Positions 9,590-34,709 of a stretch of 40,290 nucleotides of DNA are shown one piece after another. Position numbers and translations under genes: made by a program. Below the pieces are notes generated by a model. The model made no database searches, was not told the origin of the DNA, and worked only from the letters and a program-made list of their open reading frames with translations. This DNA comes from Spirochaetaceae bacterium. Lineage in GTDB: Bacteria > Spirochaetota > Spirochaetia > Treponematales > Breznakiellaceae. The DNA is taken from NCBI GenBank assembly GCA_031279285.1, contig JAITIR010000023.1, forward strand, positions 1-40,290, given 5' to 3'. Within the stretch, counting starts at the first letter, position 1; every line of letters begins with the position of its first letter.

Positions 9590-10300
9590 ATGAACGCTCC
9601 CGCAAACCTAGAAGAACTGTGCTGCCCTGTTTTTATCTGCTTCTGCAATTACTGGCAGTTGAACCAGACGGGGTTTCCCCCCTCACCGGAAAAATTCCGG
9701 GAGGATATTGAAGCCTCCCTGGGGGACGCCAAACTGAAAGCCTCGGCGGATCCCGCGCTGATCCGGGAATATGAACGTATAGAACGGCCCCTGGTTTTTT
9801 TTATCGACTTTATGGTCAAGGAGGGGAGCTTTCCCTTTAGCAGGGAGTGGCGGGAACTGGGCAGGAACTACAACGAGCTTTCCGGGGATGAAAAGTTTTT
9901 CAACCTCCTCTCCGATGCCCTCCGGGACAGCAAGGACCCGCATACCTTCGCCCTCTTTTATACCATGCTGGGACTGGGCTTTGAGGGGGCCTACGCGCGG
10001 GATCGGAGGTTTATCGAAAAAACCATGAAGGAATGCGAGGCCCGTTTCCCTGCGGAGCTTGATATCCGGGAAGAGCCCATTGTCGAAGTCGACACGGAAA
10101 AACGGATCGCCGGCTCAAGGCGGGTCCGGGCGCGGCGGCCCCTGCGTATGGCCCTTGTTTTTTCCTTCCTCTTTTTGATTTTTTCCCTTGCCGTTAATTT
10201 TGCCGTCTTTTTCAAAACGACTCTCCATTTCCGGGAAACCCTGTCCGGCGCCGCCGCCCAGGTCCGGGAAATTCAAACCGTCCCCTATGAGGTTCCATAA
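9590..10300 (+). CDS. tssL: T6SS inner-membrane protein TssL (DotU family)
   Basis: 236 residues, with AGGAGG at 9579-9584 and ATG at 9590. The cytoplasmic helical domain has DotU features: PVFICFCNYWQLNQTG at the start, REDIEASLGDAK, and LFYTMLGLGFEGAYARD (the DotU 'cLxLGFeGrYr' element). A single C-terminal transmembrane segment covers about residues 187-208, with a short periplasmic tail, the tail-anchored topology typical of TssL. No peptidoglycan-binding OmpA domain is fused. Its stop overlaps the tssM start (TAATG), so translation is coupled. Confidence 0.92.
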   Translation: MNAPANLEELCCPVFICFCNYWQLNQTGFPPSPEKFREDIEASLGDAKLKASADPALIREYERIERPLVFFIDFMVKEGSFPFSREWRELGRNYNELSGDEKFFNLLSDALRDSKDPHTFALFYTMLGLGFEGAYARDRRFIEKTMKECEARFPAELDIREEPIVEVDTEKRIAGSRRVRARRPLRMALVFSFLFLIFSLAVNFAVFFKTTLHFRETLSGAAAQVREIQTVPYEVP

Positions 10301-13300
10301 TGCCCCCCCAATCTTTCGCCTTTATTCAAAACGGCGTCAATCTGATACAAACCAGCACAATAGCCAAGGTCGTTGTGGCTATTGTGCTGCTCCTCCTGTT
10401 CGTTATGGTGGTTCTGCCCCTCATAGGAAAGGCCCGGCGGAAGCGGATCAAAGCAAAGGAATCCCGGGACATCCTCAAGGACCTGATGGTCTGGCGCCAT
10501 GTGGCCCGGCTTGCCCAGGGCGGGGAGGATCACAACAAAGCCAAGGAAGAACTTTCGGACAACATCGTCAAAATAAACGATCTTCTCAAACAGGGCTTTG
10601 ACCTCGCCTCCCTCCACGGTAGGGGGCTCTACGGGGTGCCCTGGTTTATGCTTCTGGGGGAGCCCGGCTCGGGAAAATCGGCCCTGCTCCGGGAGAGCGA
10701 GCTGGAACTGATTCCCTCGACGGAGGAGGAGAAGGCCGACCCGGACGACAAAAGCCTCCCCGTAAGGTTTTGGCTTGGTGGAAAGGCGGTGGTCTGCGAT
10801 GTAAGCGGCAGGGTTTTTTTTGACCGCTGGCTTGAGGGCAGCAGCGCGGAATGGACCCATATCATCAAACAGATCTGCCGCAGACACTACCGCAAGCCCC
10901 TGGACGGCGTCATCCTAACCATTCCCGCGGACGCGCTTTTGGCGGACAGCGGGGATCTGACCCGCAAAAAAGCCACCCTCATGGCAAACGAACTGGCCCA
11001 CCTGCTGGACTCAAGCGGTATGCGCCTACCCTGTTATGTGGTGGTAACCAAGCTCGACATGGTAAACGGCTTCCGGGAATATGCCCTGGGCCTTTCCGGG
11101 GAGCTACGGCGCCAGATCCTGGGCTATGAAAATAAAGGCGCCGCGTACCGGGTGGAGGATTTTAAGAAGTTCTGGGCCGTCCTGCTTTCCCGGCTCCGTT
11201 CGGGCCGCAAGAAAAGCATGGATTCCCGGGAACTACAGATCCGCCTTTCCGACGCGTCCAACCGGATGGATATAACGGGAAAGTTGTTTTTGTTCCCCGA
11301 AAATTTTGACGGCCTGTACCGCAATCTTCATATTTACCTTGAAGCCCTGTTCAGCGAAGACACCTTCCACGGAACCAAGGACACGGTTTTCGACGGGCTT
11401 TTCTTTACCAGTTCCGCGGATTCGGGCGTTTCTTTTAGCCCGGACCTTGCGGCGCTGGCGGGCAAAGCCGCCGACGACTTTATTTTAAGCGATGCAAAGC
11501 CGCCGGTGTTCCAGTCCTATTTTGTCCGGGATATGCTACAGAAGTATGTTTTTAACCCCTCCCCACACGCCGTCTTTGTCAGAAAGGAAGCTTTCAGCCG
11601 GGCGATACCCCTTCTCGGCCTCTGCGGGGTTTTGGCGGTCGCCGCCTTTATCAGCCTCTACTCCGCGCTTTTCAGAGCCGATGAACTTGCCCGATCCTTG
11701 GCCCAGGCCACCAACTATTACCAGTCCCTGAGTTCCGCGCTGCGGGAACGGGGCGCGGGCCCCCCTCTGATCATAAAAAACCAGGACAATACCTTTGCGG
11801 TTAATAACAACCCCGGCCCCCAAAACAACGGATCTTCTCCGGTGCTGTTCTACTACAACGCCCTGTCCTATAGAAACGCCAATCTGACCCCCCCTCTGGG
11901 TTTTCGCCTGGCGGATCTGCTGGTGTTTCGGGAAGCCAACATGGGCCGCCGGGACCGGGTTTTTATCACCAACCAGCTCTACGGGAGCCTTGTCAGAACC
12001 CCCCTCATAAGAAACGTGGGCTCCAAACTGGTCGATCAGTCCTTTAAGACCCCGGTCCTTAACCGGGAATTGCGTTCCGTCATTGAATCCTTTACCCGGC
12101 TTGACGAGCTGAGCCAGGATGATTTTCAGCGGATATTCCGGTCCAACCAGTACAACGCCGAAGCCATGACTAGCTATCTTCTGCCGGATATTTCCAACGA
12201 TTCCAGGTCCCTGCTCAACAGTTTTCTCCCCCGGTATGACCGGCGCTACACCTTCTCCGAAGAAGCCGCCTATGTCTACTCCGACGATTTCCTCCAGGCC
12301 AAGGACGCGGCGTTGCGGATCATCCTCTCCGCCTGGCAACGCCTCTCGGTGTATCCCGATTCCCTGTACGGCAAAATAAAAACCCTGGTCTCCCTGTCCC
12401 AGAATATCGTTACCAATTACGGACGGATCACAGCGCTCCTGCGCCGCTCCGCTGACGCGGCGTCCCTGCGGGACGTGCAAAACCTGGTTACCGAGTGGAA
12501 GGATTTGACCCAGACCCAAAACACCCTTATCGCCCGGGGCAGGCAGTTCTTTGAGGATATAAAAAACGAGATGCTCCGGGTCAATATACCCCTGGGCTTT
12601 AACGGGGACGGGGGAGGCGACCCCTTCGGCAACAACCTGATAAACGACTATCTGTTCAACGAACTGGTCATCACTTACGCGGTAAAGGATTACACGAATT
12701 ATTTTAAAAAGGACATGGACTTTGTCAGGGCGAAAGGCGCCGGAAGCCTGATCGCTGTTACGGGGACTGTCAGCGCCCTGGAGCGCGAGTTTTCCGGCGA
12801 TCTGGAGCGGGAACTTGAAACACTCCGGGCCGGCGCCGCGAGCCTTAAAAACAACGAACTCCTGTCCGGAAAAATGACCGAAGAGCCGGATTCGCAGTCC
12901 CTTTTTATGGTGGTGGAAAAAATATTGACTCTGGCCGGGGCGGTGGACATACCGGATCCGGCGCGGCTGCGGAATGCCGCCGCTGTGGATTGGATGAGCG
13001 GCCAATATGACATTGTCGCCGCCTTTGACAATTACGAAGCCTATGTTAAGCCCTTCCTGGAAAATGAAAAGGTTTCCGGCCTTATCCGTAACGGCAGGAT
13101 CGTCCTGGCGGCCCAGGCCTATCTTAACCGCGCTATTGTTTTAAGCGCCGAATACGACTTCCTCTCCAGCTCCGCCGAAACCATAAGCGCCATGATAGCC
13201 TCCCGGTCGGAAACGGAAGGCCAGGAAATTTTTTCCCTCTCCGGCAGGGCGATTCAAAGCGCGCTGGGGGGGCTGGTGTACAACCGGGGCTACGATCCGG

Positions 13301-14652
13301 GAATAGTCAAGGATATAACCGACGGCATCGCTGCGTATAACGATCTCTTTACCAACTATGCAAACCTGACCGAACCGCCGAAATTCTTGCAGAACCGTGA
13401 CGGGAGCATCTACCAGACCGACGCTTTCAGCGGCTACCTCGGTTTGTACCTCAACTATTGGGGGAATTATCCCGATAACGCCTACGTTCCTTCCCCGTCC
13501 TGGCGGGAATACCGGGCGCGGATAAACCAAACAAAGCCCTATCAGATCAATTCGGTCCTCCAGTCCCTTTACAGCGAATGTTCCGGCATAGTAAACGATG
13601 TCAACGATATCGTGTTGTCTGAGGTGTTAAAGCGGGAAAAAGCCGACTCCATCGCGTCCCTGGGCGACCGGATAAAACTGCTTTCCGCCTTTCTCAGCGC
13701 CGACGCGGATCGTATGCTCACCGCCTGGGGCAGGCTGCCCGCGGACGCTGAACCGGCCTTTAAGCATATCCGGGCCCTGCCCCTGGACGAAATTAAAGAA
13801 ACCTACATGACTGTCTATTCGGACACCCGGAATATCAGCATAGGCTGGTGGAACGATTTTATCATGGACGGAATCAACATCCTATCGAGAACCTTTTGCG
13901 ACCTAAAACTGGAGGCTTTTGCGGAGAAGCTGGAGAGCCTCAAGGTATTCCCCCTCCTTTCCGACGCCCCCCGGGATGAGACCCTGTCCCCCGCCGATCT
14001 GGAGGGCCTGACCCTGTTGCTGCAGGACATGGGGGCTGGTTATTTGCTGAAGCCGCCCGCCGAAGATCAGGACCCACTGGAACCGGCGCTGCGCCCCATC
14101 CTGTTCCGGGACGCCGCCGCCCGGGCTTGGGCGCAGACCGTCTACCAATTTGTCGCGGCCGCGGCGAACCGGGAGAAACCCCTCGCCTGGACTCTATCCC
14201 AACCGCCCATTGATATTCAGGAGAGACTGTCCATGGAGGGCCGTCTGCTCGGAGTCAACCGTTTCCGGTACCTGGAAGTATCCGCCGCGGGAAAAAGCCC
14301 CCGGTTCTTTAACACCTATACAAACGAAAAGATCAGCCTGGCCGAAGGCGGCCCCGCGGACAGGGACATACGCTTTGGGTTTTACCGGGCCTCGTCGGAC
14401 CGGAGGCCAGCGGCGGCAATTGACCTGGACAAGCCCTGGTCGATCTTTGATATCTATTTGAGCAGAAATGTCATAAAAGGCGATCAGGATATTTTATATT
14501 TCCCCGTCTTCCTTGAGGATGAACAGGGGCAGTACGTGTATTTTACGGAAATTGATTTTAACGCCGACATTCCCAGTCCGGACCGCTGGTACACCGCGGC
14601 TACCTGGCCGAATCTGAGGATTACCGACGGCATGGTCACGGTAAGCCGCTAA
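10300..14652 (+). CDS. tssM: T6SS inner-membrane protein TssM (IcmF family)
   Basis: 1450 residues, slightly longer than many TssM proteins. Transmembrane helices lie at about 22-44 and 435-457. The cytoplasmic domain between them carries a Walker A motif GEPGSGKS (120-127) and continues as a GTPase-like fold (VVVTKLDMVNGF near 247-258). After the second helix comes a very large periplasmic region ending in a beta-rich C-terminal domain, which contacts TssJ. TssM with TssL and TssJ forms the trans-envelope channel through which the needle is fired. The presence of Walker A suggests nucleotide binding is kept. It is the last gene of the operon; a hairpin follows the stop. Confidence 0.95.
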   Translation: MPPQSFAFIQNGVNLIQTSTIAKVVVAIVLLLLFVMVVLPLIGKARRKRIKAKESRDILKDLMVWRHVARLAQGGEDHNKAKEELSDNIVKINDLLKQGFDLASLHGRGLYGVPWFMLLGEPGSGKSALLRESELELIPSTEEEKADPDDKSLPVRFWLGGKAVVCDVSGRVFFDRWLEGSSAEWTHIIKQICRRHYRKPLDGVILTIPADALLADSGDLTRKKATLMANELAHLLDSSGMRLPCYVVVTKLDMVNGFREYALGLSGELRRQILGYENKGAAYRVEDFKKFWAVLLSRLRSGRKKSMDSRELQIRLSDASNRMDITGKLFLFPENFDGLYRNLHIYLEALFSEDTFHGTKDTVFDGLFFTSSADSGVSFSPDLAALAGKAADDFILSDAKPPVFQSYFVRDMLQKYVFNPSPHAVFVRKEAFSRAIPLLGLCGVLAVAAFISLYSALFRADELARSLAQATNYYQSLSSALRERGAGPPLIIKNQDNTFAVNNNPGPQNNGSSPVLFYYNALSYRNANLTPPLGFRLADLLVFREANMGRRDRVFITNQLYGSLVRTPLIRNVGSKLVDQSFKTPVLNRELRSVIESFTRLDELSQDDFQRIFRSNQYNAEAMTSYLLPDISNDSRSLLNSFLPRYDRRYTFSEEAAYVYSDDFLQAKDAALRIILSAWQRLSVYPDSLYGKIKTLVSLSQNIVTNYGRITALLRRSADAASLRDVQNLVTEWKDLTQTQNTLIARGRQFFEDIKNEMLRVNIPLGFNGDGGGDPFGNNLINDYLFNELVITYAVKDYTNYFKKDMDFVRAKGAGSLIAVTGTVSALEREFSGDLERELETLRAGAASLKNNELLSGKMTEEPDSQSLFMVVEKILTLAGAVDIPDPARLRNAAAVDWMSGQYDIVAAFDNYEAYVKPFLENEKVSGLIRNGRIVLAAQAYLNRAIVLSAEYDFLSSSAETISAMIASRSETEGQEIFSLSGRAIQSALGGLVYNRGYDPGIVKDITDGIAAYNDLFTNYANLTEPPKFLQNRDGSIYQTDAFSGYLGLYLNYWGNYPDNAYVPSPSWREYRARINQTKPYQINSVLQSLYSECSGIVNDVNDIVLSEVLKREKADSIASLGDRIKLLSAFLSADADRMLTAWGRLPADAEPAFKHIRALPLDEIKETYMTVYSDTRNISIGWWNDFIMDGINILSRTFCDLKLEAFAEKLESLKVFPLLSDAPRDETLSPADLEGLTLLLQDMGAGYLLKPPAEDQDPLEPALRPILFRDAAARAWAQTVYQFVAAAANREKPLAWTLSQPPIDIQERLSMEGRLLGVNRFRYLEVSAAGKSPRFFNTYTNEKISLAEGGPADRDIRFGFYRASSDRRPAAAIDLDKPWSIFDIYLSRNVIKGDQDILYFPVFLEDEQGQYVYFTEIDFNADIPSPDRWYTAATWPNLRITDGMVTVSR

Positions 14653-26159: not shown

Positions 26160-27251
26160 TCAACTGTTCATCGAGATAGCATAAGGTATTTTTGATGTAA
26201 GTATTTTAACAGTCCTTAGCCAGTACTTGCTTTTACAAAACCGACTCACCTGTTCCGCGATTCTATTTTGATCAGCCATAGGCGCTATAGTGATGCTAAC
26301 TATGGGAAGATGACCCTCACAAATAATTGGTCTTGGGTCTTCAGGATTTTTTTCACGCAAAAAATCCCACATTGCGGAATGCAACTCTGATTGGTTACGA
26401 CAATTCGGCAATAAAACAGGCACACCTGGCATATTAGGATTGTTGCATATTTTTGTTAGATTTTTCTCTATGAGTCTTTCTCTTTTCGTAGAGTCTTTTA
26501 TGAAACCATGTTTTACAACAATAAATGGTATTTTTGTTCCATTTTTTAATGACTTAAATCTAATACATTCTGAAAGTTTATCGTCCGAATTTGAAAGTAT
26601 AACCCTAAATTCTTTTTCCTGACAAAATTGTGGAAGCTTAAATAACGGCACAAACCAACTTTCTTTCAACGAATTACCGTTACTTTTATTCTCATATTCC
26701 AGTAGTTGAAATACTATTTTTTGTCTGTCTCGTACAAACTGGCTTGTTTCCGTTAAAGGTTCTATCTCGTCATTTAGGTATATTACAGGAACAGCAACAC
26801 TTGTGACAATATGAAACTTTTTATTGAATTCATAATCTGCGTGGAGTACACTAAAACTTGATACTCTTCCTGTATATTTACTATCAAAATGAAAACCAAT
26901 GGAAGCCCCGCCATTGTTACAATATCCCCGCCATTGACTCAAGGTATCGCCTTCATCAGCACTCAAGCTAAAGGCAAAATTATCACTTTGATAATTTATC
27001 TCTTTAAGCTTTTCTTTACCAACAATCTTTTCCTCTGTAAGATCGTTTGAAAAAGGCAAACTGAAAAACCAGAGCGAATCATTTTCTAATAGGTTAAAAA
27101 GTGTTTCCATGGATGTATAATGGTATAGTTCTAGGGGGAAGAAAACCATCTTCTTGCCTTTTGGAGAATGAGCATAAATTTCCTCATTATGTTTTTCAAG
27201 AAAACTTTTTATTTTTTCTGCATTCCCTTTATTATTTAGTGAGATTGACAT
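26160..27251 (-). CDS. DUF2971 protein, third gene of the AT-rich operon
   Basis: 363 residues. The DUF2971 hallmarks are LYHYTSMETLFNLLENDSLW (42-61), FSLPFSND (63-70), and FSLSADEGDTLSQWRGYCN with GGASIGFHFDS (94-124). A later LPQFCQEKEFRVIL segment is the conserved Glu-Phe-Arg element. The family is widespread in mobile and defence-like neighbourhoods and has no settled activity that I know. The YHYT...S...EFR order resembles ADP-ribosyltransferase-like folds, which is an inference only. The start overlaps the end of the receiver-like gene by 20 bp, with a GTAGAGG ribosome site, so translation is coupled. Last gene of the operon. Confidence 0.78.
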   Translation of the reverse strand: MSISLNNKGNAEKIKSFLEKHNEEIYAHSPKGKKMVFFPLELYHYTSMETLFNLLENDSLWFFSLPFSNDLTEEKIVGKEKLKEINYQSDNFAFSLSADEGDTLSQWRGYCNNGGASIGFHFDSKYTGRVSSFSVLHADYEFNKKFHIVTSVAVPVIYLNDEIEPLTETSQFVRDRQKIVFQLLEYENKSNGNSLKESWFVPLFKLPQFCQEKEFRVILSNSDDKLSECIRFKSLKNGTKIPFIVVKHGFIKDSTKRERLIEKNLTKICNNPNMPGVPVLLPNCRNQSELHSAMWDFLREKNPEDPRPIICEGHLPIVSITIAPMADQNRIAEQVSRFCKSKYWLRTVKILTSKIPYAISMNS

Positions 27252-27879
27252 CCTCTACCCCTATACCAAAGAACTTTAAGAATTCTTTCTGTTCATCAGA
27301 ATCCTCCATTAGCAGTCTTTGTTCTCTAAAAAAAACAAATTCTTTATGACTTACTATAAAAGGCTTAATAGTCGGGTATAGATCAGGATTATACCAAGAA
27401 TAGATAAATATTTTGATATTTGACCTGTTTGATAATTCCTTAAGTATTTCATCCGTCAGGGTTTCTTTGGATTCAGTGCCCTCTCTATTAAGTCTGATAT
27501 CTACACCAATAACAACCGTATCTTTACTATCATTGTTTTGAATAATCTTATCAATAATTCTAACTACATCATCACAAGATGAATTATCTGGTAAATCATA
27601 CGGTTTTGTTGGGATAAGACTTTCTTTCTTTTTGTAATATTCATCTAATGTATCATCTCCTTTTTGTTCATAACAAAACTGATAAAATAAATTTGTAATA
27701 ATACCCTGTAGTTTATCAACAAAACCCTTTCTATCCGCCTCCGGTTCCTCTTCCCTATAATTATCACCAACAAGAATCATTTTGTTGCAAACATTATGCG
27801 TCCATAAAATATGGGAAAGAGAAACACTGATTTGTGTCAACCGGGAAATAGTATCATCAATCCAAATCATTGTTTTCAT
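27232..27879 (-). CDS. Receiver-like protein, second gene of the AT-rich operon
   Basis: 215 residues from ATG 27879, chosen because AGGAGG lies 8 bp upstream; an in-frame upstream start lacks one. The N-terminus MKTMIWIDDTISRL has the acidic pair (Asp8-Asp9) of a response-regulator beta-1 strand. VVIGVDIRLNREG (122-134) resembles a phosphoacceptor strand with Asp127, and IFIYSWYNPDLYP (157-169) a later strand with Ser161; a Lys follows at 179. The gap between Asp9 and Asp127 is far longer than in a normal receiver and would be an insert of about 60 helical residues. I read this as a divergent receiver-like fold with moderate doubt. No DNA-binding domain is present. The stop overlaps the DUF2971 start. 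Confidence 0.55.
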   Translation of the reverse strand: MKTMIWIDDTISRLTQISVSLSHILWTHNVCNKMILVGDNYREEEPEADRKGFVDKLQGIITNLFYQFCYEQKGDDTLDEYYKKKESLIPTKPYDLPDNSSCDDVVRIIDKIIQNNDSKDTVVIGVDIRLNREGTESKETLTDEILKELSNRSNIKIFIYSWYNPDLYPTIKPFIVSHKEFVFFREQRLLMEDSDEQKEFLKFFGIGVEDVNLTK

Positions 27880-27890
27880 TTTATATCCTC

Positions 27891-30800
27891 CTATGAATCG
27901 AATAACGGCAATGTGGAAACAAACCATAATTCCACTTTATCGAAGTAGTATCCAAAAAGCGTTTTAAGGCCATTCTGATAATTCTCATTTAATTCAGAAG
28001 ATGATTTATACTCAAACCATTTATTTTCACTGGTGCTTTTTTTACTGGTGTTTTTGCCGAAATCATCCTTATATGGATTGTTTTTGAGATATTTTGAGAT
28101 AGCAAGCAAACTCATGTGTCCATCAAAACAATCAAGAGTATCCGTAAGTCGTCTATAGATTTTTTCATTTTGCTGCTTATCGGTGTTGAGAATATTATTA
28201 TATACCGGATTTACCGGATTAATAATAATCAAATTCCTGCCATCACGCATAAATAAAACCCGATAGATCAACACGCCATAGCTTTTTATTGCGTCTTTTT
28301 CTCTTTCATTACAGTTGTTAATATCATATTCCCTGCATATTTTTGAAAACTGTTCTTTGATTTTTATCAATTTCTGTATCCGAGTCAGAAAATCAACATT
28401 TTCATGCCAATACTTTGCGCCTGTTAAAATAATATCAAATAAAATACACTTTAAATACTCTTTAACAAAAGAACCACATTTGCCCGAACGAATTAAAGAA
28501 TCTTTAATATCTGTAATATCAGATACTTCTGTAAAAGCCTTACACATCCTAACACGCTTGTCGTTTTCATCCCATATATCGCAAAATCTTTCTGCTTTCT
28601 GTGCAAAGCTATCCGTATTGTCAATATCAGCTTCTTCCAAGTATAATCGCGGTTTGTGATTATCATTTTGTTCATTTTCTTGATACAGTAATGACTGATT
28701 AAATATTTTTGCAATTTCATGGTTGATGTAATTTCTAAAAAGCAACCACACATATTTATCAAACGGACCATATTTATCAAATGCATCGGTTTTTTCTGCT
28801 TTATTCCAAATTACCGCGGATAATTGGTCGTCAGAAGTTGATGTATGGCTGACCGACTTTTCATGTCTAAGTACGGCATTTTCGGAGGCTGTCTTTGCGT
28901 GGGTCTGCATCAAATGACTGTTAAAGTCGTCTTTAAACATAGTTATGATTAGATTTCTGTATGTTAAAATATCACGCAAAACCAAAAATGGAATGACATT
29001 GCTCTTGGAAGAATCATTTTTAAAATCGAACCTGATATATAAATAAACATTCTCAATTTCTTCTTTATCAAACCGTATAATAACAAATGGTTTTTTAAAA
29101 GAGTTATTATCTGCTTCCTGATCAAATTTATCAGGCGTTTCAGAACCATCTTTATTCTCCGCCGTAATAACTACATAGCCGTCCTGTTTCAGGTTGCCAT
29201 GCATGGAACAATTTGAATTTTGTTTATATTCATCTTCCGATGCCATGATTATTCGTTGTTTAATAATGTATTTTGCATCTGACGGCGAATGAGGAGGATT
29301 TTCTCTAAAATCAACTGAAATAAAATCAAGATGATCCATATCAATTTTATCGGATTTATTTTGAACAACAATAGCAAGCCGCATTGTATTCTTTTCAATG
29401 TCGTATTTTTCACTAATTGTCCTCTTGATTCGTAACAATATTAGTTCATATTTTTTTAGAGTATTTTTCGTATTGTGTCCTTCAGTTTTTATTAAATCAA
29501 ATAGTTTTCTTTCAGTTGCACATAGGCCATTATTGGGCACTCCCGCCCAACTGAAATTCCATTCCCTGAACTTCGCAAAAGTTTGCAGAAAATAATTTGT
29601 ATTTGACTGAGTACCTTGCTCATTCGGCAATTTATAAATACCGTCAAAAATTAACCGCGTATTTTGAATAAATATCTCCATACAGAATTCTTTAAATATT
29701 TCTTTTTTCCAGGAATAACGCATATCAGAGTAATTTTTTTCTGAAGAAACTATTGCATCGAACAAAGGTAAAGATTTGCCTTTTTGGGGTTGTTTATTAT
29801 CATTTCGATTTAGAACATATTCGGTGCCATGAGAAAAAAGATGCTCCATCCATAACGAGCGCGTTTCATCGCCGCCACTATCAATTATATAGTGAATAAG
29901 GAAGGCATACTTATTCCAAAAATTTCTTATTATTGTTTTATCGTTAGAATTATGGTTTAGAATATATAGATATACACTTTTTATCACATGCTCTCTTAAT
30001 AAGTAGTTACTTCTCATATCAGACAACGACTCAAATAAAAAATCTTTTAGAAAAGTCAATATACTTTCAGACTCAGGACATTCACAGGTAAAAAGATGTT
30101 TTACGCTTTTGATAATTTCTTTGTACTCATTATTAATAACTTCATCTGATATAATCGCTTCAGACATACATATTAATAATTTATAAACCTCTTTTCTAAG
30201 TTCAAAATTGTATGACAAGAATGGCCGCGATATTACCTTTATTGCATTTTGAATCAACCATATCGTTTTTTCCGAACCCGTATTAACTTCTTCCATGGAC
30301 TCATAAGCAACTTTTACCAAAATTGATTCTTCATCATTGGCCTCAAACTCATCGCTTGTATTGAGAATAATATTGAGAAATTCTATTAGTGCTTTTTTAT
30401 AATCTTGGCCATATTTCTTAATAATTGTTTCAGCAGCATGATTTATAATAAAGCGCACAAATGCCTTATTCCCGCTATGTTTATTCATTTCTTTAGTAGT
30501 ATCAAACGAAATCGGTTTGTAATCATCCGTTTTCTTCTTCCAATAGTCCGCAAAAGTTTTTGTCGAACTTCGTTTTAATAAATATTTCGCTTCCTCTTCA
30601 AACTTGCAGCCAACACATGAATCGCCTTGAGTGCGCATATTGGAAATATGTATATTACAAAATGAAAGAAAATTGTTTTCCTGCCAGGCTACATAAGCCT
30701 CCTTTGATTTATCTGAAAGACGATTTATCAAACAAAAAACTTTCTCAAAAATATTTCTTTGTTTAGAGCCAATTGTGTAACTGTCTCTTTGTTCTTTTGG

Positions 30801-33800
30801 AAGAAGGGACAGCGATAAAGAATTGGCTCTTTGGAAACTCTCACCCGTGATAATCCCGTCATCTACAAAGTAAAATTTTACCGCAAATTTTTCGGAAAAC
30901 AATCGTTCAATTGTTTGATTAAGAGCATAGTGTTCACAAACAAAGTTTGATCGAAATTGTTTATGTACATTTATTGAGACAATTTCGGCAGCGCCATTGA
31001 AATAGTGAGCGTTTACCAGTTGAGAGAAACCCGCATTTGTATTATGTTCAGGCGCAAATATAATATTCAGAACAGGAGTGCCATTTTTTTCTTCCTGCCT
31101 TCTTTTAGTATCTTTTTCCCGTTCATCAGTCAACCATTTTATTACCAGTTGTTGAATTTTTGGCCTGGCAATATATTTTTGGGTATCAAAATAATACTGA
31201 TAATGGTTGGCTCCGCGGACAATATGTCCATAATACACACAATCCTTCAGCTCTTCAAATTTGACCTTTATACCGTCTAAATCCGATCCAGTTTCTTCTA
31301 TCGGCGACGCTTTATTTTCTGACGTCTCAATTTGATAAAATTGAAAAGCGGGAACCGTCGAAGTTCTGTCAGTTTCGATCAACGGGATTTCATCCCAAAC
31401 CTTATCTGGAAAACATTGTTTACAATTAATAGGTTTAGACCATGATGACATGGCGGAGAAAATATACGAGATTTTTTTGCAATCTTTCAATTCAACAAGT
31501 TTAGCGGTATCTACAGTTACCGTGCGGTTGCTTGTATCTATACTTTTCCATAGTTCATTCTCAATCGGTGTTATGTCATCAGGCATTGCCGTTGTCCCAT
31601 CATCTTTTATAGTAAACAAGTCCCCGTTAGGCGGTATCGGCAGCGTATGATGAGCGCTGGAAATGTTGATTTTATCCCGTATAAGAAAGACTGTATAATT
31701 GGCAGTGAGATGTGGGTATTCATTCTTTCGTTCTTTCGAGTATTGTGCCCACATTTTATCAAATGTTGTCAACGTAGAAGCAATAGGAACAATTTGGATA
31801 ACCGCGGTAGGTTTACCGGAATCCGAATTTTTACGCGTGCTATAAATCTGAATAGGAGTTTGGTCAGATTTTGATTCAGATTGAATATTGTATTGATATG
31901 AAGCGTAATATATATTAACGCCAGCTCTGTTCTTAAAATATTCAGTTAACATTTCATGCAGTGAAAACACTAAAGACTGCGAATAAGAAGCATACCCGTA
32001 AAACACAATATCCCTTTCCCCTTTTTCCGCGATCCTGGTTAATATACTTTCGCTTTCCAGTTTTCTAATAATATAAAAAGCTATTCTATTTGCGATAGAT
32101 GTCCTGTGGAATAAAAAGGACATTTCATAAAATGAATTTGCATGAACTTTGTTTCCCAAACGGACATGTATATTTCGAAATAAATAGCCTGGTTCTTCTT
32201 TTGAAGGTGAAACAAGGTCTTTATTTGCAATGTTCAAGATACTTTTGTAAAATTGTGGAAGTTTATCTTTGTTTTCAGGATACTCAAAAACGGTAAAAGG
32301 ACAAATCGGTATGGCTGTTTCCGGCATCGCAAGCATAGATCTATACAAAGCCAGAATATCGGAAGCGTTTCGGTAATGGGAAGAATCAAAACTCTTTTCA
32401 CCATGTTCCAGCGACATGATATACGCGTTTTGAACAACATGTCCAACGTTGTTACCTGCCAAAATTGCTTGATTTGGATAAATACTTTTTTCATTACTTT
32501 CACACGAGAAGAAAACCTGTAGGTTTGTCGGATAATCCAACAGACTTAAAGGAACGCTCACAGATTGAAGTGTATTAATGAATGATACAGGAAGATTCTC
32601 AAAATAAAATAACAAAGGATCATTATCTTGTGTCTTGTGAACAGACAAAGAGGCGGCCGCAAAAAAACCTTTTAGGAAAACTTCACAAATAGTCGGGTTT
32701 TTTAGTTTTTCAAAAAGTATCCTTTTTTCATCATTTTTAACATCGCACCAGTAAAGTGTTTTATGGTCTTTCTGTATTGGATTCAGTAAGTTTAACCAAA
32801 AGTTCTTAAAATCTTCTACAGTTTTTTTCTTATCTTCAAAACTTTTTATATCCCAGGAATAAAACTGACTGTCACTGCTTCTTAGTTTAACTGATTCATT
32901 TTCCCACATTTTGTTTGAAACTTTATAATCCAGGTATTTTGAAAAAGCCAGGTGATTTTCATTAAATGCATTATTGTTGGCTAATTGAACCAGATTTACT
33001 GGCCCCATTTTTTCATAATAATTTGTTGGTATTGTAAAATAAAAATGTGTACCGGGGATTGTGAAATTTTGTCCGTGCCGTTGTTCACCGGTAGAATTGG
33101 AAGCATAATAATTATTTTTGTTATTTGCTAATCTGTGTGCCGGATTGCTGATAATTTCTAAACAATGATAGTTACATTTTTTCAGTGTATGATAAAACAT
33201 TGTTAGTCCTATGTGGCCGGAAGAGTCTTTTTTCCGATAATTATACCACGCGTTAAGAACGGGAGCGGGAGAGTCGCTGAAATCACCAACAAGCTGATTT
33301 AATGATAAATTGACTTCAGGCCGATCAAAAACATTAATTTTATTTTCTGTTGTTAAAGTTTGCCTAAAAGTTTCTATGATGCCCATTTTCTCATTTAGGT
33401 CGCTAATCCGAACCGCTAAACACTCATCATTTTTATATATTTCTTTGAAGATGGAAATAAAGCACTCACGATTCTGCGAATGTTGGATGGCGTTTTGAAC
33501 AATTTGACGAATCCCTTCTCCCAGTTCCATGGCAAATTTCGAGGTTTCTTGAACAGTTTTCCTGATTTTTGCATTTGCTTCTTTTTCCGTGCATTTTCGT
33601 AAGTTGAGTAAATAGCTAAAAATTGAAAATGTAAAACGATCTGTATTTTTTGTGAAATTTAGAATATCAGGGATAAATTTCACGATTGCTTCTCTACCCA
33701 ATGTTAATATTTCGTTAATATCTTCAACTTTTTGTCTATCCGGATGGATCGCGGCAAATTGTATTAATAATCTTTGCCGGGCTTCATCCAATAACATATC

Positions 33801-34709
33801 GGCTATAGCTTCTCGAGGATCTTCTTTTCCCGCATCATTGAATGGCCGCGGATTATTGCTTTTTATTTTATATGAGAGTCCGTTTTTTATCGTACCAGAA
33901 TCTGCCATACCAGTTGTTTCAAAAACACGGGAATAATTATCAATTGTCTGATTATTGATGGCGGCTGGTCTTGTTAAATACAACAACGGAAATATCAGCA
34001 AATCCCTGTCACGTTCTCTGAATCCTAAAGCTTCAGCCTTGCCTCCGGAAGAACTGGCATATACAACTCCATTGTGTGTCTTCGTAATTAACCGTAAATA
34101 TTGTGAAGCTATTTTGTAAAGTGACACATCCGGATCAATATCATCTTCGGCAAAATAACAATTGACCCCTGTATGGGGAATTAAATATACACTAACTAAG
34201 CCTGAGAGTGCGTTTGGTGCAAAAACCGGGTGTTCATCATTTTTTAAGTGTGTTAAATTTAAGCTTTGTAAAAACAGTGCAAGAAAATGCAGATTGTCAA
34301 CATGCTTATATTCTTTTGTTACTTCGTCATAGTCAAACTGTACACGAATATGATAGTGCGGCCGCCGCATATTTTTTTTATTTATCTGCCAATTATTAAC
34401 AAATTGTACCAGAGATTGTTCCTCTTGCTCGATCCGGACCGGAGTGCGTGCGAAATGTCCAGGCCTCAAAGATACTTCCATCTTGTCATTGGGACCATTT
34501 GACCGGGTATTAAGACTGAAATTAAAAGCATCATCTAAATTGGCTTTTTTACAAATCTTTAAGAATGACTTTATGTTTTCACTTAACTCGTTTTCATTAA
34601 CTACATTTAAAATATTACTTTCAAAATATTCTATCGCTTCCGAACAGTGCGCATAACATTCGTGCCGATTGTTTACTTTAAATACAAGTACAATTTCCTC
34701 GTTTTTCAT
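27891..34709 (-). CDS. 2272-residue GHKL ATPase / tandem phosphoribosyltransferase-like protein
   Basis: Starts at ATG 34709 with AGGAG six bases upstream. Residues 1-380 have no family I recognise. About 385-540 look like a GHKL (Hsp90/histidine-kinase/MutL) ATPase: N-box GIRQIVQNAIQHSQN with Asn406, a weak G1 box at Asp437 (DLNEKMGI), and a lid/G2 GHIGLTMFYHTLKK at 498-511. About 845-1010 resembles a phosphoribosyltransferase: RLGNKVHANSFYEM, DIVFYGYASYSQSLVF, and a degenerate PRPP loop IVPIASTLTTF near 972-982. About 1180-1300 is a second one with a canonical PRPP loop FVDDGIITGES (1281-1291). CxxC pairs occur near 1095 and 1365. From about 1400 to the end it is long and helical. It is coupled to the receiver-like gene 11 bp downstream. 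A stress or conflict role is inferred. Confidence 0.8.
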   Translation of the reverse strand: MKNEEIVLVFKVNNRHECYAHCSEAIEYFESNILNVVNENELSENIKSFLKICKKANLDDAFNFSLNTRSNGPNDKMEVSLRPGHFARTPVRIEQEEQSLVQFVNNWQINKKNMRRPHYHIRVQFDYDEVTKEYKHVDNLHFLALFLQSLNLTHLKNDEHPVFAPNALSGLVSVYLIPHTGVNCYFAEDDIDPDVSLYKIASQYLRLITKTHNGVVYASSSGGKAEALGFRERDRDLLIFPLLYLTRPAAINNQTIDNYSRVFETTGMADSGTIKNGLSYKIKSNNPRPFNDAGKEDPREAIADMLLDEARQRLLIQFAAIHPDRQKVEDINEILTLGREAIVKFIPDILNFTKNTDRFTFSIFSYLLNLRKCTEKEANAKIRKTVQETSKFAMELGEGIRQIVQNAIQHSQNRECFISIFKEIYKNDECLAVRISDLNEKMGIIETFRQTLTTENKINVFDRPEVNLSLNQLVGDFSDSPAPVLNAWYNYRKKDSSGHIGLTMFYHTLKKCNYHCLEIISNPAHRLANNKNNYYASNSTGEQRHGQNFTIPGTHFYFTIPTNYYEKMGPVNLVQLANNNAFNENHLAFSKYLDYKVSNKMWENESVKLRSSDSQFYSWDIKSFEDKKKTVEDFKNFWLNLLNPIQKDHKTLYWCDVKNDEKRILFEKLKNPTICEVFLKGFFAAASLSVHKTQDNDPLLFYFENLPVSFINTLQSVSVPLSLLDYPTNLQVFFSCESNEKSIYPNQAILAGNNVGHVVQNAYIMSLEHGEKSFDSSHYRNASDILALYRSMLAMPETAIPICPFTVFEYPENKDKLPQFYKSILNIANKDLVSPSKEEPGYLFRNIHVRLGNKVHANSFYEMSFLFHRTSIANRIAFYIIRKLESESILTRIAEKGERDIVFYGYASYSQSLVFSLHEMLTEYFKNRAGVNIYYASYQYNIQSESKSDQTPIQIYSTRKNSDSGKPTAVIQIVPIASTLTTFDKMWAQYSKERKNEYPHLTANYTVFLIRDKINISSAHHTLPIPPNGDLFTIKDDGTTAMPDDITPIENELWKSIDTSNRTVTVDTAKLVELKDCKKISYIFSAMSSWSKPINCKQCFPDKVWDEIPLIETDRTSTVPAFQFYQIETSENKASPIEETGSDLDGIKVKFEELKDCVYYGHIVRGANHYQYYFDTQKYIARPKIQQLVIKWLTDEREKDTKRRQEEKNGTPVLNIIFAPEHNTNAGFSQLVNAHYFNGAAEIVSINVHKQFRSNFVCEHYALNQTIERLFSEKFAVKFYFVDDGIITGESFQRANSLSLSLLPKEQRDSYTIGSKQRNIFEKVFCLINRLSDKSKEAYVAWQENNFLSFCNIHISNMRTQGDSCVGCKFEEEAKYLLKRSSTKTFADYWKKKTDDYKPISFDTTKEMNKHSGNKAFVRFIINHAAETIIKKYGQDYKKALIEFLNIILNTSDEFEANDEESILVKVAYESMEEVNTGSEKTIWLIQNAIKVISRPFLSYNFELRKEVYKLLICMSEAIISDEVINNEYKEIIKSVKHLFTCECPESESILTFLKDFLFESLSDMRSNYLLREHVIKSVYLYILNHNSNDKTIIRNFWNKYAFLIHYIIDSGGDETRSLWMEHLFSHGTEYVLNRNDNKQPQKGKSLPLFDAIVSSEKNYSDMRYSWKKEIFKEFCMEIFIQNTRLIFDGIYKLPNEQGTQSNTNYFLQTFAKFREWNFSWAGVPNNGLCATERKLFDLIKTEGHNTKNTLKKYELILLRIKRTISEKYDIEKNTMRLAIVVQNKSDKIDMDHLDFISVDFRENPPHSPSDAKYIIKQRIIMASEDEYKQNSNCSMHGNLKQDGYVVITAENKDGSETPDKFDQEADNNSFKKPFVIIRFDKEEIENVYLYIRFDFKNDSSKSNVIPFLVLRDILTYRNLIITMFKDDFNSHLMQTHAKTASENAVLRHEKSVSHTSTSDDQLSAVIWNKAEKTDAFDKYGPFDKYVWLLFRNYINHEIAKIFNQSLLYQENEQNDNHKPRLYLEEADIDNTDSFAQKAERFCDIWDENDKRVRMCKAFTEVSDITDIKDSLIRSGKCGSFVKEYLKCILFDIILTGAKYWHENVDFLTRIQKLIKIKEQFSKICREYDINNCNEREKDAIKSYGVLIYRVLFMRDGRNLIIINPVNPVYNNILNTDKQQNEKIYRRLTDTLDCFDGHMSLLAISKYLKNNPYKDDFGKNTSKKSTSENKWFEYKSSSELNENYQNGLKTLFGYYFDKVELWFVSTLPLFDS

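Follow-up and report, generated by a model that had tools for sequence, protein, structure and literature searches.

A conserved three-gene operon was found in a stretch of 40,290 nucleotides (called the window below) from a Spirochaetaceae bacterium (GenBank assembly GCA_031279285.1, contig JAITIR010000023.1, forward strand). According to the list of open reading frames (ORFs) and their translations, it consists of three minus-strand genes, which encode a large protein, a receiver-like protein (REC), and a DUF2971 protein. The association of the three genes is beyond chance, because their identical order recurs in 10 of 11 genomes that were found via the large protein. The unit has probably moved horizontally between distant gut-type bacteria, and we consider it an even call whether it works as a phosphorelay in the cytoplasm with an ADP-ribosyltransferase-like effector under its control, probably in response to conflict or stress. 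Loci other than the window are designated by L and a number, and genomes by G and a number.

A scan of a genome collection with a DUF2971 alignment yielded 237 relatives, and the best 80 loci were kept. According to local tblastn, 13 of the best 80 (of 237) loci have the large protein upstream of DUF2971, which thus often occurs without it. All 13 loci come from Lachnospiraceae, Roseburia, or Oscillospiraceae records, and in 13 of 13 the receiver-like gene lies between the other two. Because these first 13 loci had been picked by DUF2971, profiles of the large protein alone were run on whole genomes. Matches were obtained in 8 of 397 genomes of the family of genome G303, in 2 of 348 genomes of its phylum (one of them known already), and in 2 of 194 genomes of the window's own order, one being the window's own. 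A search of the window's own phylum with the large protein listed 2 of 296 genomes, the window's own and G135; the latter was rejected as a chance match, as only 55 residues aligned, and these to a different kind of protein by eye. Pooling of the large-protein finds gave 11 distinct genomes; some genomes may have been drawn in more than one search, and known members had served to build the profiles. In the 10 genomes mentioned above, the order large protein, receiver-like protein, DUF2971 was therefore recovered by searches made without DUF2971, an outcome in favor of the preliminary description of this DNA, against which a large protein found consistently alone or with unrelated neighbors would have counted. 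The sole exception was L196, in which the core is fused to a metallophosphoesterase and neither REC nor DUF2971 adjoins. The fused domain, a calcineurin-like phosphoesterase (PF00149, E 3.9e-11), replaces the kinase module (L196:1153-8028), and this arrangement is an output swap. Together with four further loci, L200, and L213, whose contig begins inside the large gene, the 13 loci of the DUF2971 scan make 19 loci beyond the window with the three genes in identical order. In L109 (176-6260) and L200 (7687-13879), two neighboring genes encode the large protein between them; the break points differ and match domain boundaries. L097 has a piece of the large protein, and the genome of L100 has none. 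Two weak matches of a receiver query, L005 and L006, were both dropped; by eye, L006 resembled a type I restriction enzyme.

The three proteins have also diverged together. Mantel tests of pairwise distances, performed with the window and 18 loci (L213 was left out), gave r values of 0.95 for the large protein and REC, 0.97 for the large protein and DUF2971, and 0.93 for REC and DUF2971 (0 of 2000 permutations in each case). In 18 of 19 loci, the GC content falls below that of the flanks, and the window shows this most clearly. The unit occurs across phyla, and its distribution is patchy: the 2 of 194 genomes of the window's order include the window's own, and 0 of 2 same-genus genomes were among the matches listed. 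The earlier proposal of transfer as a unit is supported, and the unit is co-inherited. The PHP gene to the left of the operon had a match in 39 of 39 genomes of the family. In the 9 of these 39 family stretches that were inspected, the genes on the operon's right side do not adjoin the PHP gene, so no empty site could be demonstrated. Mobile elements were also searched. Single-sequence tblastn of plasmids and phages with the large protein revealed no relative; at E 10 the only matches were two Arcobacter plasmids, and the match was unrelated. A single-sequence search of viral contigs and one genome-collection scan with two joined fragments likewise returned no relative of the large protein, and a viral-contig search with the family alignment gave 116 pattern matches, none of them a relative.

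The coordinates of the operon and its predicted domains are compiled in the table. The preliminary description had reported three coupled ORFs on one strand that are more AT-rich than their surroundings; the ORFs and their positions, the spacing, and the GC content (0.339 in the operon vs 0.548 in the left and 0.530 in the right flank) confirmed this. The middle ORF as listed spans 27232-27927 (-). However, the ATG at 27879 is more likely to be its start than position 27927, judging from the sequence, because an AGGAGG site is found there and the resulting product begins where the products of the relatives begin. With this start, 11 bp separate the large gene from the middle gene, and the middle gene overlaps the DUF2971 gene by 20 bp. 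Ordinary chromosomal genes flank the operon: a chaperonin gene and the PHP gene to its left, and genes for an iron-type ABC transporter and for ExbB/D to its right. A 1450-aa (amino acid) ORF at 10300-14652 of the window is separate from the operon. The assembly of the host genome is partial, with 1.54 Mb and a completeness of 71.67%.

Table. Positions in the window of the operon genes and of predicted domains and motifs (PRPP, phosphoribosyl pyrophosphate)
Feature	Position	Strand	Remarks
Large protein ORF	27891..34709	-	2272 aa; GHKL-like ATPase, two phosphoribosyltransferase-like domains, helical region, predicted C-terminal histidine-kinase module
GHKL-like ATPase domain	32985..33557	-	aa 385-575; N-box Q402/N406, D437, G2-like H499-x-G501-L, G3-like P552-G553-T
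First phosphoribosyltransferase-like domain	31335..32114	-	about aa 866-1125; degenerate PRPP loop
Second phosphoribosyltransferase-like domain	30510..31277	-	aa 1145-1400; PRPP motif VDDGIITGES, Cys pair C1365/C1368
PRPP-binding motif codons DDGIITG	30843..30863	-	aa 1283-1289
Predicted C-terminal histidine-kinase module	27894..29312	-	aa 1800-2272; GAF-like stretch, DHp helices, CA fold
Codon of H1955, candidate phosphoacceptor His	28845..28847	-	conserved in alignment
Receiver-like protein	27232..27879	-	215 aa; acid pair, phosphoacceptor Asp, S/T; ribosome-binding site
DUF2971 protein	26160..27251	-	363 aa; predicted ADP-ribosyltransferase-like effector; Pfam PF11185 above cut-off

The large protein belongs to no family above the cut-off in Pfam, NCBIfam, or PADLOC, the fused phosphoesterase of L196 excepted. 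Its best Pfam match, HATPase_c, covered a sub-segment and was not significant (E 0.084), and searches of PDB profiles with parts of the protein yielded no significant phosphoribosyltransferase (PRTase), GHKL, or histidine-kinase match. The domain assignments are based on conserved residues and on an AlphaFold2 model of residues 774-1972 of the relative L102, not of the window protein (19 sequences, pLDDT 78.6, pTM 0.69). At the C-terminus, a DHp-CA histidine-kinase module is predicted from this model. In Foldseek, 31 PDB entries matched at E <= 0.001, almost exclusively histidine kinases or phytochromes, and VIA structural comparison of the kinase module gave a Z of about 11. The position of H1955 is conserved in 12 of 12 aligned sequences, and 19 of 19 proteins carry a His at the corresponding position. 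In L109 its equivalent is encoded by the separate gene, in L200 by the C-terminal half, and it is kept in L213 too, as judged by eye. The middle proteins, in turn, have an acid pair near the N-terminus, an Asp in a hydrophobic strand, and usually a T/S after the next strand. The receiver acid residue and the Asp are invariant in 19 of 19 middle proteins, and the T/S is present in most by eye. No DNA-binding domain was seen in the receiver-like protein. A profile of the family matched a chain named NF4 (E 0.0076).

The N-terminal part was examined in the same way. In the GHKL-like domain, Q402, N406, D437, H499, G501, and P552 are invariant in 14 of 14 aligned relatives and G553 is nearly invariant; these residues follow one another in what we take to be the order of the GHKL N, G1, G2, and G3 boxes. 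The first PRTase-like domain is predicted to have a PRTase fold: the first 209 residues of the L102 model align to orotate and other phosphoribosyltransferases in VIA, with Z up to 12.9 over 138 residues (root mean square deviation (rmsd) 3.2). For the second PRTase-like domain, the motif DDxI(I/V)(S/T)G was found in 18 of 18 proteins that have the region, and its best PDB profile match, to an amidophosphoribosyltransferase, was not significant (E 0.15). In the L102 model, a helical stretch separates this domain from the histidine-kinase module. The GHKL/PRTase reading of the preliminary description thus gains from motifs that are conserved in relatives and from predicted structure for some parts, whereas significant Pfam matches are lacking.

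The third protein was assigned to DUF2971 by Pfam (PF11185, 23.9 bits vs a cut-off of 22). Its AlphaFold2 model (48 sequences, pLDDT 82.2, pTM 0.85) is predicted to be that of an ADP-ribosyltransferase-like effector. Among the families listed by VIA, the best neighbor was DarT 7yk3 (149 residues, rmsd 4.0), ahead of six more DarT entries, with Tpt1/KptA next; most of the first 19 rows are taken up by DarT, Tpt1/KptA, and Rhs toxins, and the first row with another fold, by our own reading, had a Z of 4.2 over 58 residues. The DarT match itself has a Z of 6.8, which is below the safe threshold, and a Foldseek E of 0.047, neither of which is safe alone. Invariant in the 48 sequences are D70, E73, Q106, W107, Y110, G115, Y158, K205, E212, E214, and R216, and H44 and Y45 are nearly so. 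Elsewhere, DUF2971 genes were seen in other surroundings. On a Vibrio plasmid (L019:9989-11850), two of them lie in tandem near a gene annotated as an AbaSI family restriction endonuclease, and in L014:1551-4547 one has a DNA-methylase-like gene and an unnamed gene nearby, according to inspection of the translations. In L018:9929-14686 and L016:9160-12834, they adjoin unrelated long unnamed proteins of 1274 and 916 aa, which suggests that DUF2971 has other partners.

If the operon is a phosphorelay, the N-terminal ATPase and the two PRTase-like domains would sense a nucleotide-type signal, and sensing would alter the DHp-CA module. Phosphate would then pass from H1955 to the Asp of the receiver protein, as suggested by the conservation of these residues and by the constant order of the genes. 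The receiver would release or activate the DUF2971 protein, which, going by its DarT-like model, would halt growth or phage replication by modifying nucleic acid or some other target in the cell. The preliminary description had seen sensing, relaying, and effecting in the three proteins; this is supported, but the C-terminal histidine-kinase module, the second PRTase-like domain, and the ADP-ribosyltransferase-like fold of DUF2971 had been missed. A fuller version, for which the chances are somewhat unfavorable, is that tandem PRTase domains of the giant protein, which sense or synthesize a nucleotide, are coupled to a His-Asp phosphorelay that directly unleashes an ADP-ribosyltransferase (DUF2971), forming a new class of bacterial immune or stress signaling in which a fused metallophosphoesterase can replace the whole output cassette.

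Several observations speak against a phosphorelay with a defensive output, in addition to the modest scores of the DarT match. In the window copy the receiver Lys cannot be made out, Response_reg of Pfam matched none of the receiver-family proteins, and the profile comparison with true receivers was weak (60% probability over 25 columns). The GHKL domain is recognized by its motifs alone, and no significant Pfam, PDB, or hhalign match was obtained for it. In the C-terminal CA domain, L102, L096, and L200 have the N-box Asn, and most others, the window's protein among them, lack it. Because this Asn is lost in most, the C-terminal module might function not as a kinase but as a phosphotransferase, as far as can be read from the sequences. 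No copy of the operon was present in the phages, plasmids, or viral contigs searched. Among the neighboring genes, the commonest Pfam families are GDP_Man_Dehyd and Epimerase, with 6 members each among 123 proteins, and the Lachnospiraceae copies stand more often beside sugar-nucleotide genes than beside defense genes. The 123 neighbors were taken from 19 loci, with L196 included and the window and L213 excluded, and without control loci. The degenerate N-box, together with the PRPP motif in 18 of 18 proteins, would also fit a different and quite improbable explanation, in which the receiver-like protein is a nucleotide sensor, the PRTase domains of the giant protein make the nucleotide, and the kinase module is vestigial. 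However, no aligned member lacks H1955 or the receiver Asp, and because both are kept throughout, phosphotransfer is favored over a vestigial kinase.

Granted a phosphorelay, the arguments for and against defense are about in balance, and a conflict or abortive-infection type response is the likeliest role. The defensive role is supported because one copy lies beside brxABC and a SIR2-like gene, and by the patchiness and the mobile neighbors; it is weakened because many copies adjoin sugar-nucleotide genes. Specifically, L200 is located between BrxA-BrxB-BrxC (E 2.6e-63, 6.2e-57, and 0) and a SIR2-like gene, a label of our own reading, plus a PDC-M54A-like gene (E 5.8e-14). L194 adjoins a type II DNA methylase gene, and L195 and L213 are near recombinase genes by inspection. 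Most other loci do not have such defense neighbors. The conflict system of the preliminary description thus stays a candidate: these neighborhoods speak for it, but genes for sugar nucleotides and polysaccharides are the commonest neighbors in the loci examined, and ordinary chromosomal genes flank the operon in the window. PADLOC-DB 2023 yielded no match for the window's three proteins and three weak single-member matches for 14 large proteins (E 0.0032 to 0.021). The PADLOC matches among the 123 neighbors were spread over 108 families, 25 of which were inspected, with no control set. Further genes were noted in two neighborhoods. Directly downstream on the same strand, L095:10914-15784 carries radical SAM-like, NUDIX-like, and deaminase-like genes, and L213:8371-14879, beyond its same-family copy of the operon, carries resolvase-like, integrase-like, and PIN-like genes and a gene for a 746-aa protein, by eye.

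The sugar-nucleotide neighbors would be explained by a physiological role, which we regard as rather unlikely: the system would read the level of a nucleotide or nucleotide sugar, and the receiver and DUF2971 would adjust adjoining genes for surface polysaccharide or glycosylation. By inspection, polysaccharide or sugar-nucleotide genes lie beside L098, L101, L102, L104, L105, L106, L141, L193, and L196, in line with the prevalence of the two families named above, and 14 of 15 genomes have a single copy, where two pieces that lie on different contigs of one genome count as one. In contrast, L099, L194, L195, L200, L213, and the window have no sugar neighbors by inspection, and the patchy distribution and the occurrence across phyla do not favor this role. 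Polysaccharide clusters are also frequent insertion hot spots, which further reduces the weight of such neighbors. An unlikely alternative is a response to stress or damage with a toxin output, comparable to a toxin-antitoxin module under a kinase switch; it would be set off by DNA damage or nucleotide starvation rather than by phage as such. Such a trigger would suit the PRTase domains, because domains of this type act on nucleotide precursors. A precedent is CapK/CapS, a kinase-substrate pair that, according to the parts of PMC13373217 compared, controls immune and VapC toxin loci on DNA damage. Like the phosphorelay proposed here, it gates an immune or toxin output; as described in those parts, however, it consists of an anti-sigma-factor-like kinase and a STAS-like repressor and is not a His-Asp relay.

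Comparison with other known systems also revealed likenesses in single parts. Response_reg_2/HEF_HK pairs (PF19192/PF19191) are two-component-like pairs linked to restriction-modification, and the parts of PMC8011034 compared describe a cytoplasmic GHKL/histidine-kinase-like protein with an adjoining divergent receiver near defense genes. In contrast, the operon proteins match neither PF19192 nor PF19191 in Pfam, and PRTase and DUF2971 are not named in those parts. DarT DNA ADP-ribosyltransferases (PDB 7yk3, 7omy) are the closest structural neighbors of the DUF2971 model, but identity in the aligned part is 9-15% and the operon lacks the macrodomain antitoxin DarG. In the anti-phage system CmdTAC, an ADP-ribosyltransferase effector is likewise under sensor control; according to the parts of PMC11618068 compared, however, a capsid protein exerts chaperone/antitoxin control, with no kinase or receiver. 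The figure legends of DefensePredictor (PMC13092281), to which that comparison was confined, contain the abbreviations HATPase, REC, and PRTase among validated or predicted defense systems. The operon is thus assembled from known kinds of parts, and its large protein is absent from the libraries searched. No description of the operon was found in the open-access literature searched, which is not proof that it is unpublished; one paper of that literature mentions DUF2971. The work of Burroughs and Aravind 2020 on histidine-kinase-based conflict systems is said to propose histidine-kinase signaling as a threshold switch for effectors, and it may include relatives of the operon.

The operon would add a large protein family that is missing from the libraries searched, and the orphan family DUF2971 would gain a testable fold and activity. 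It would exhibit a phosphorelay that has an enzyme, not a promoter, as its output, and, if it is defensive, it would tie two-component signaling to immunity outside transcription. The replacement of the kinase by a phosphoesterase in L196 offers a ready means of separating the sensing core from its output.

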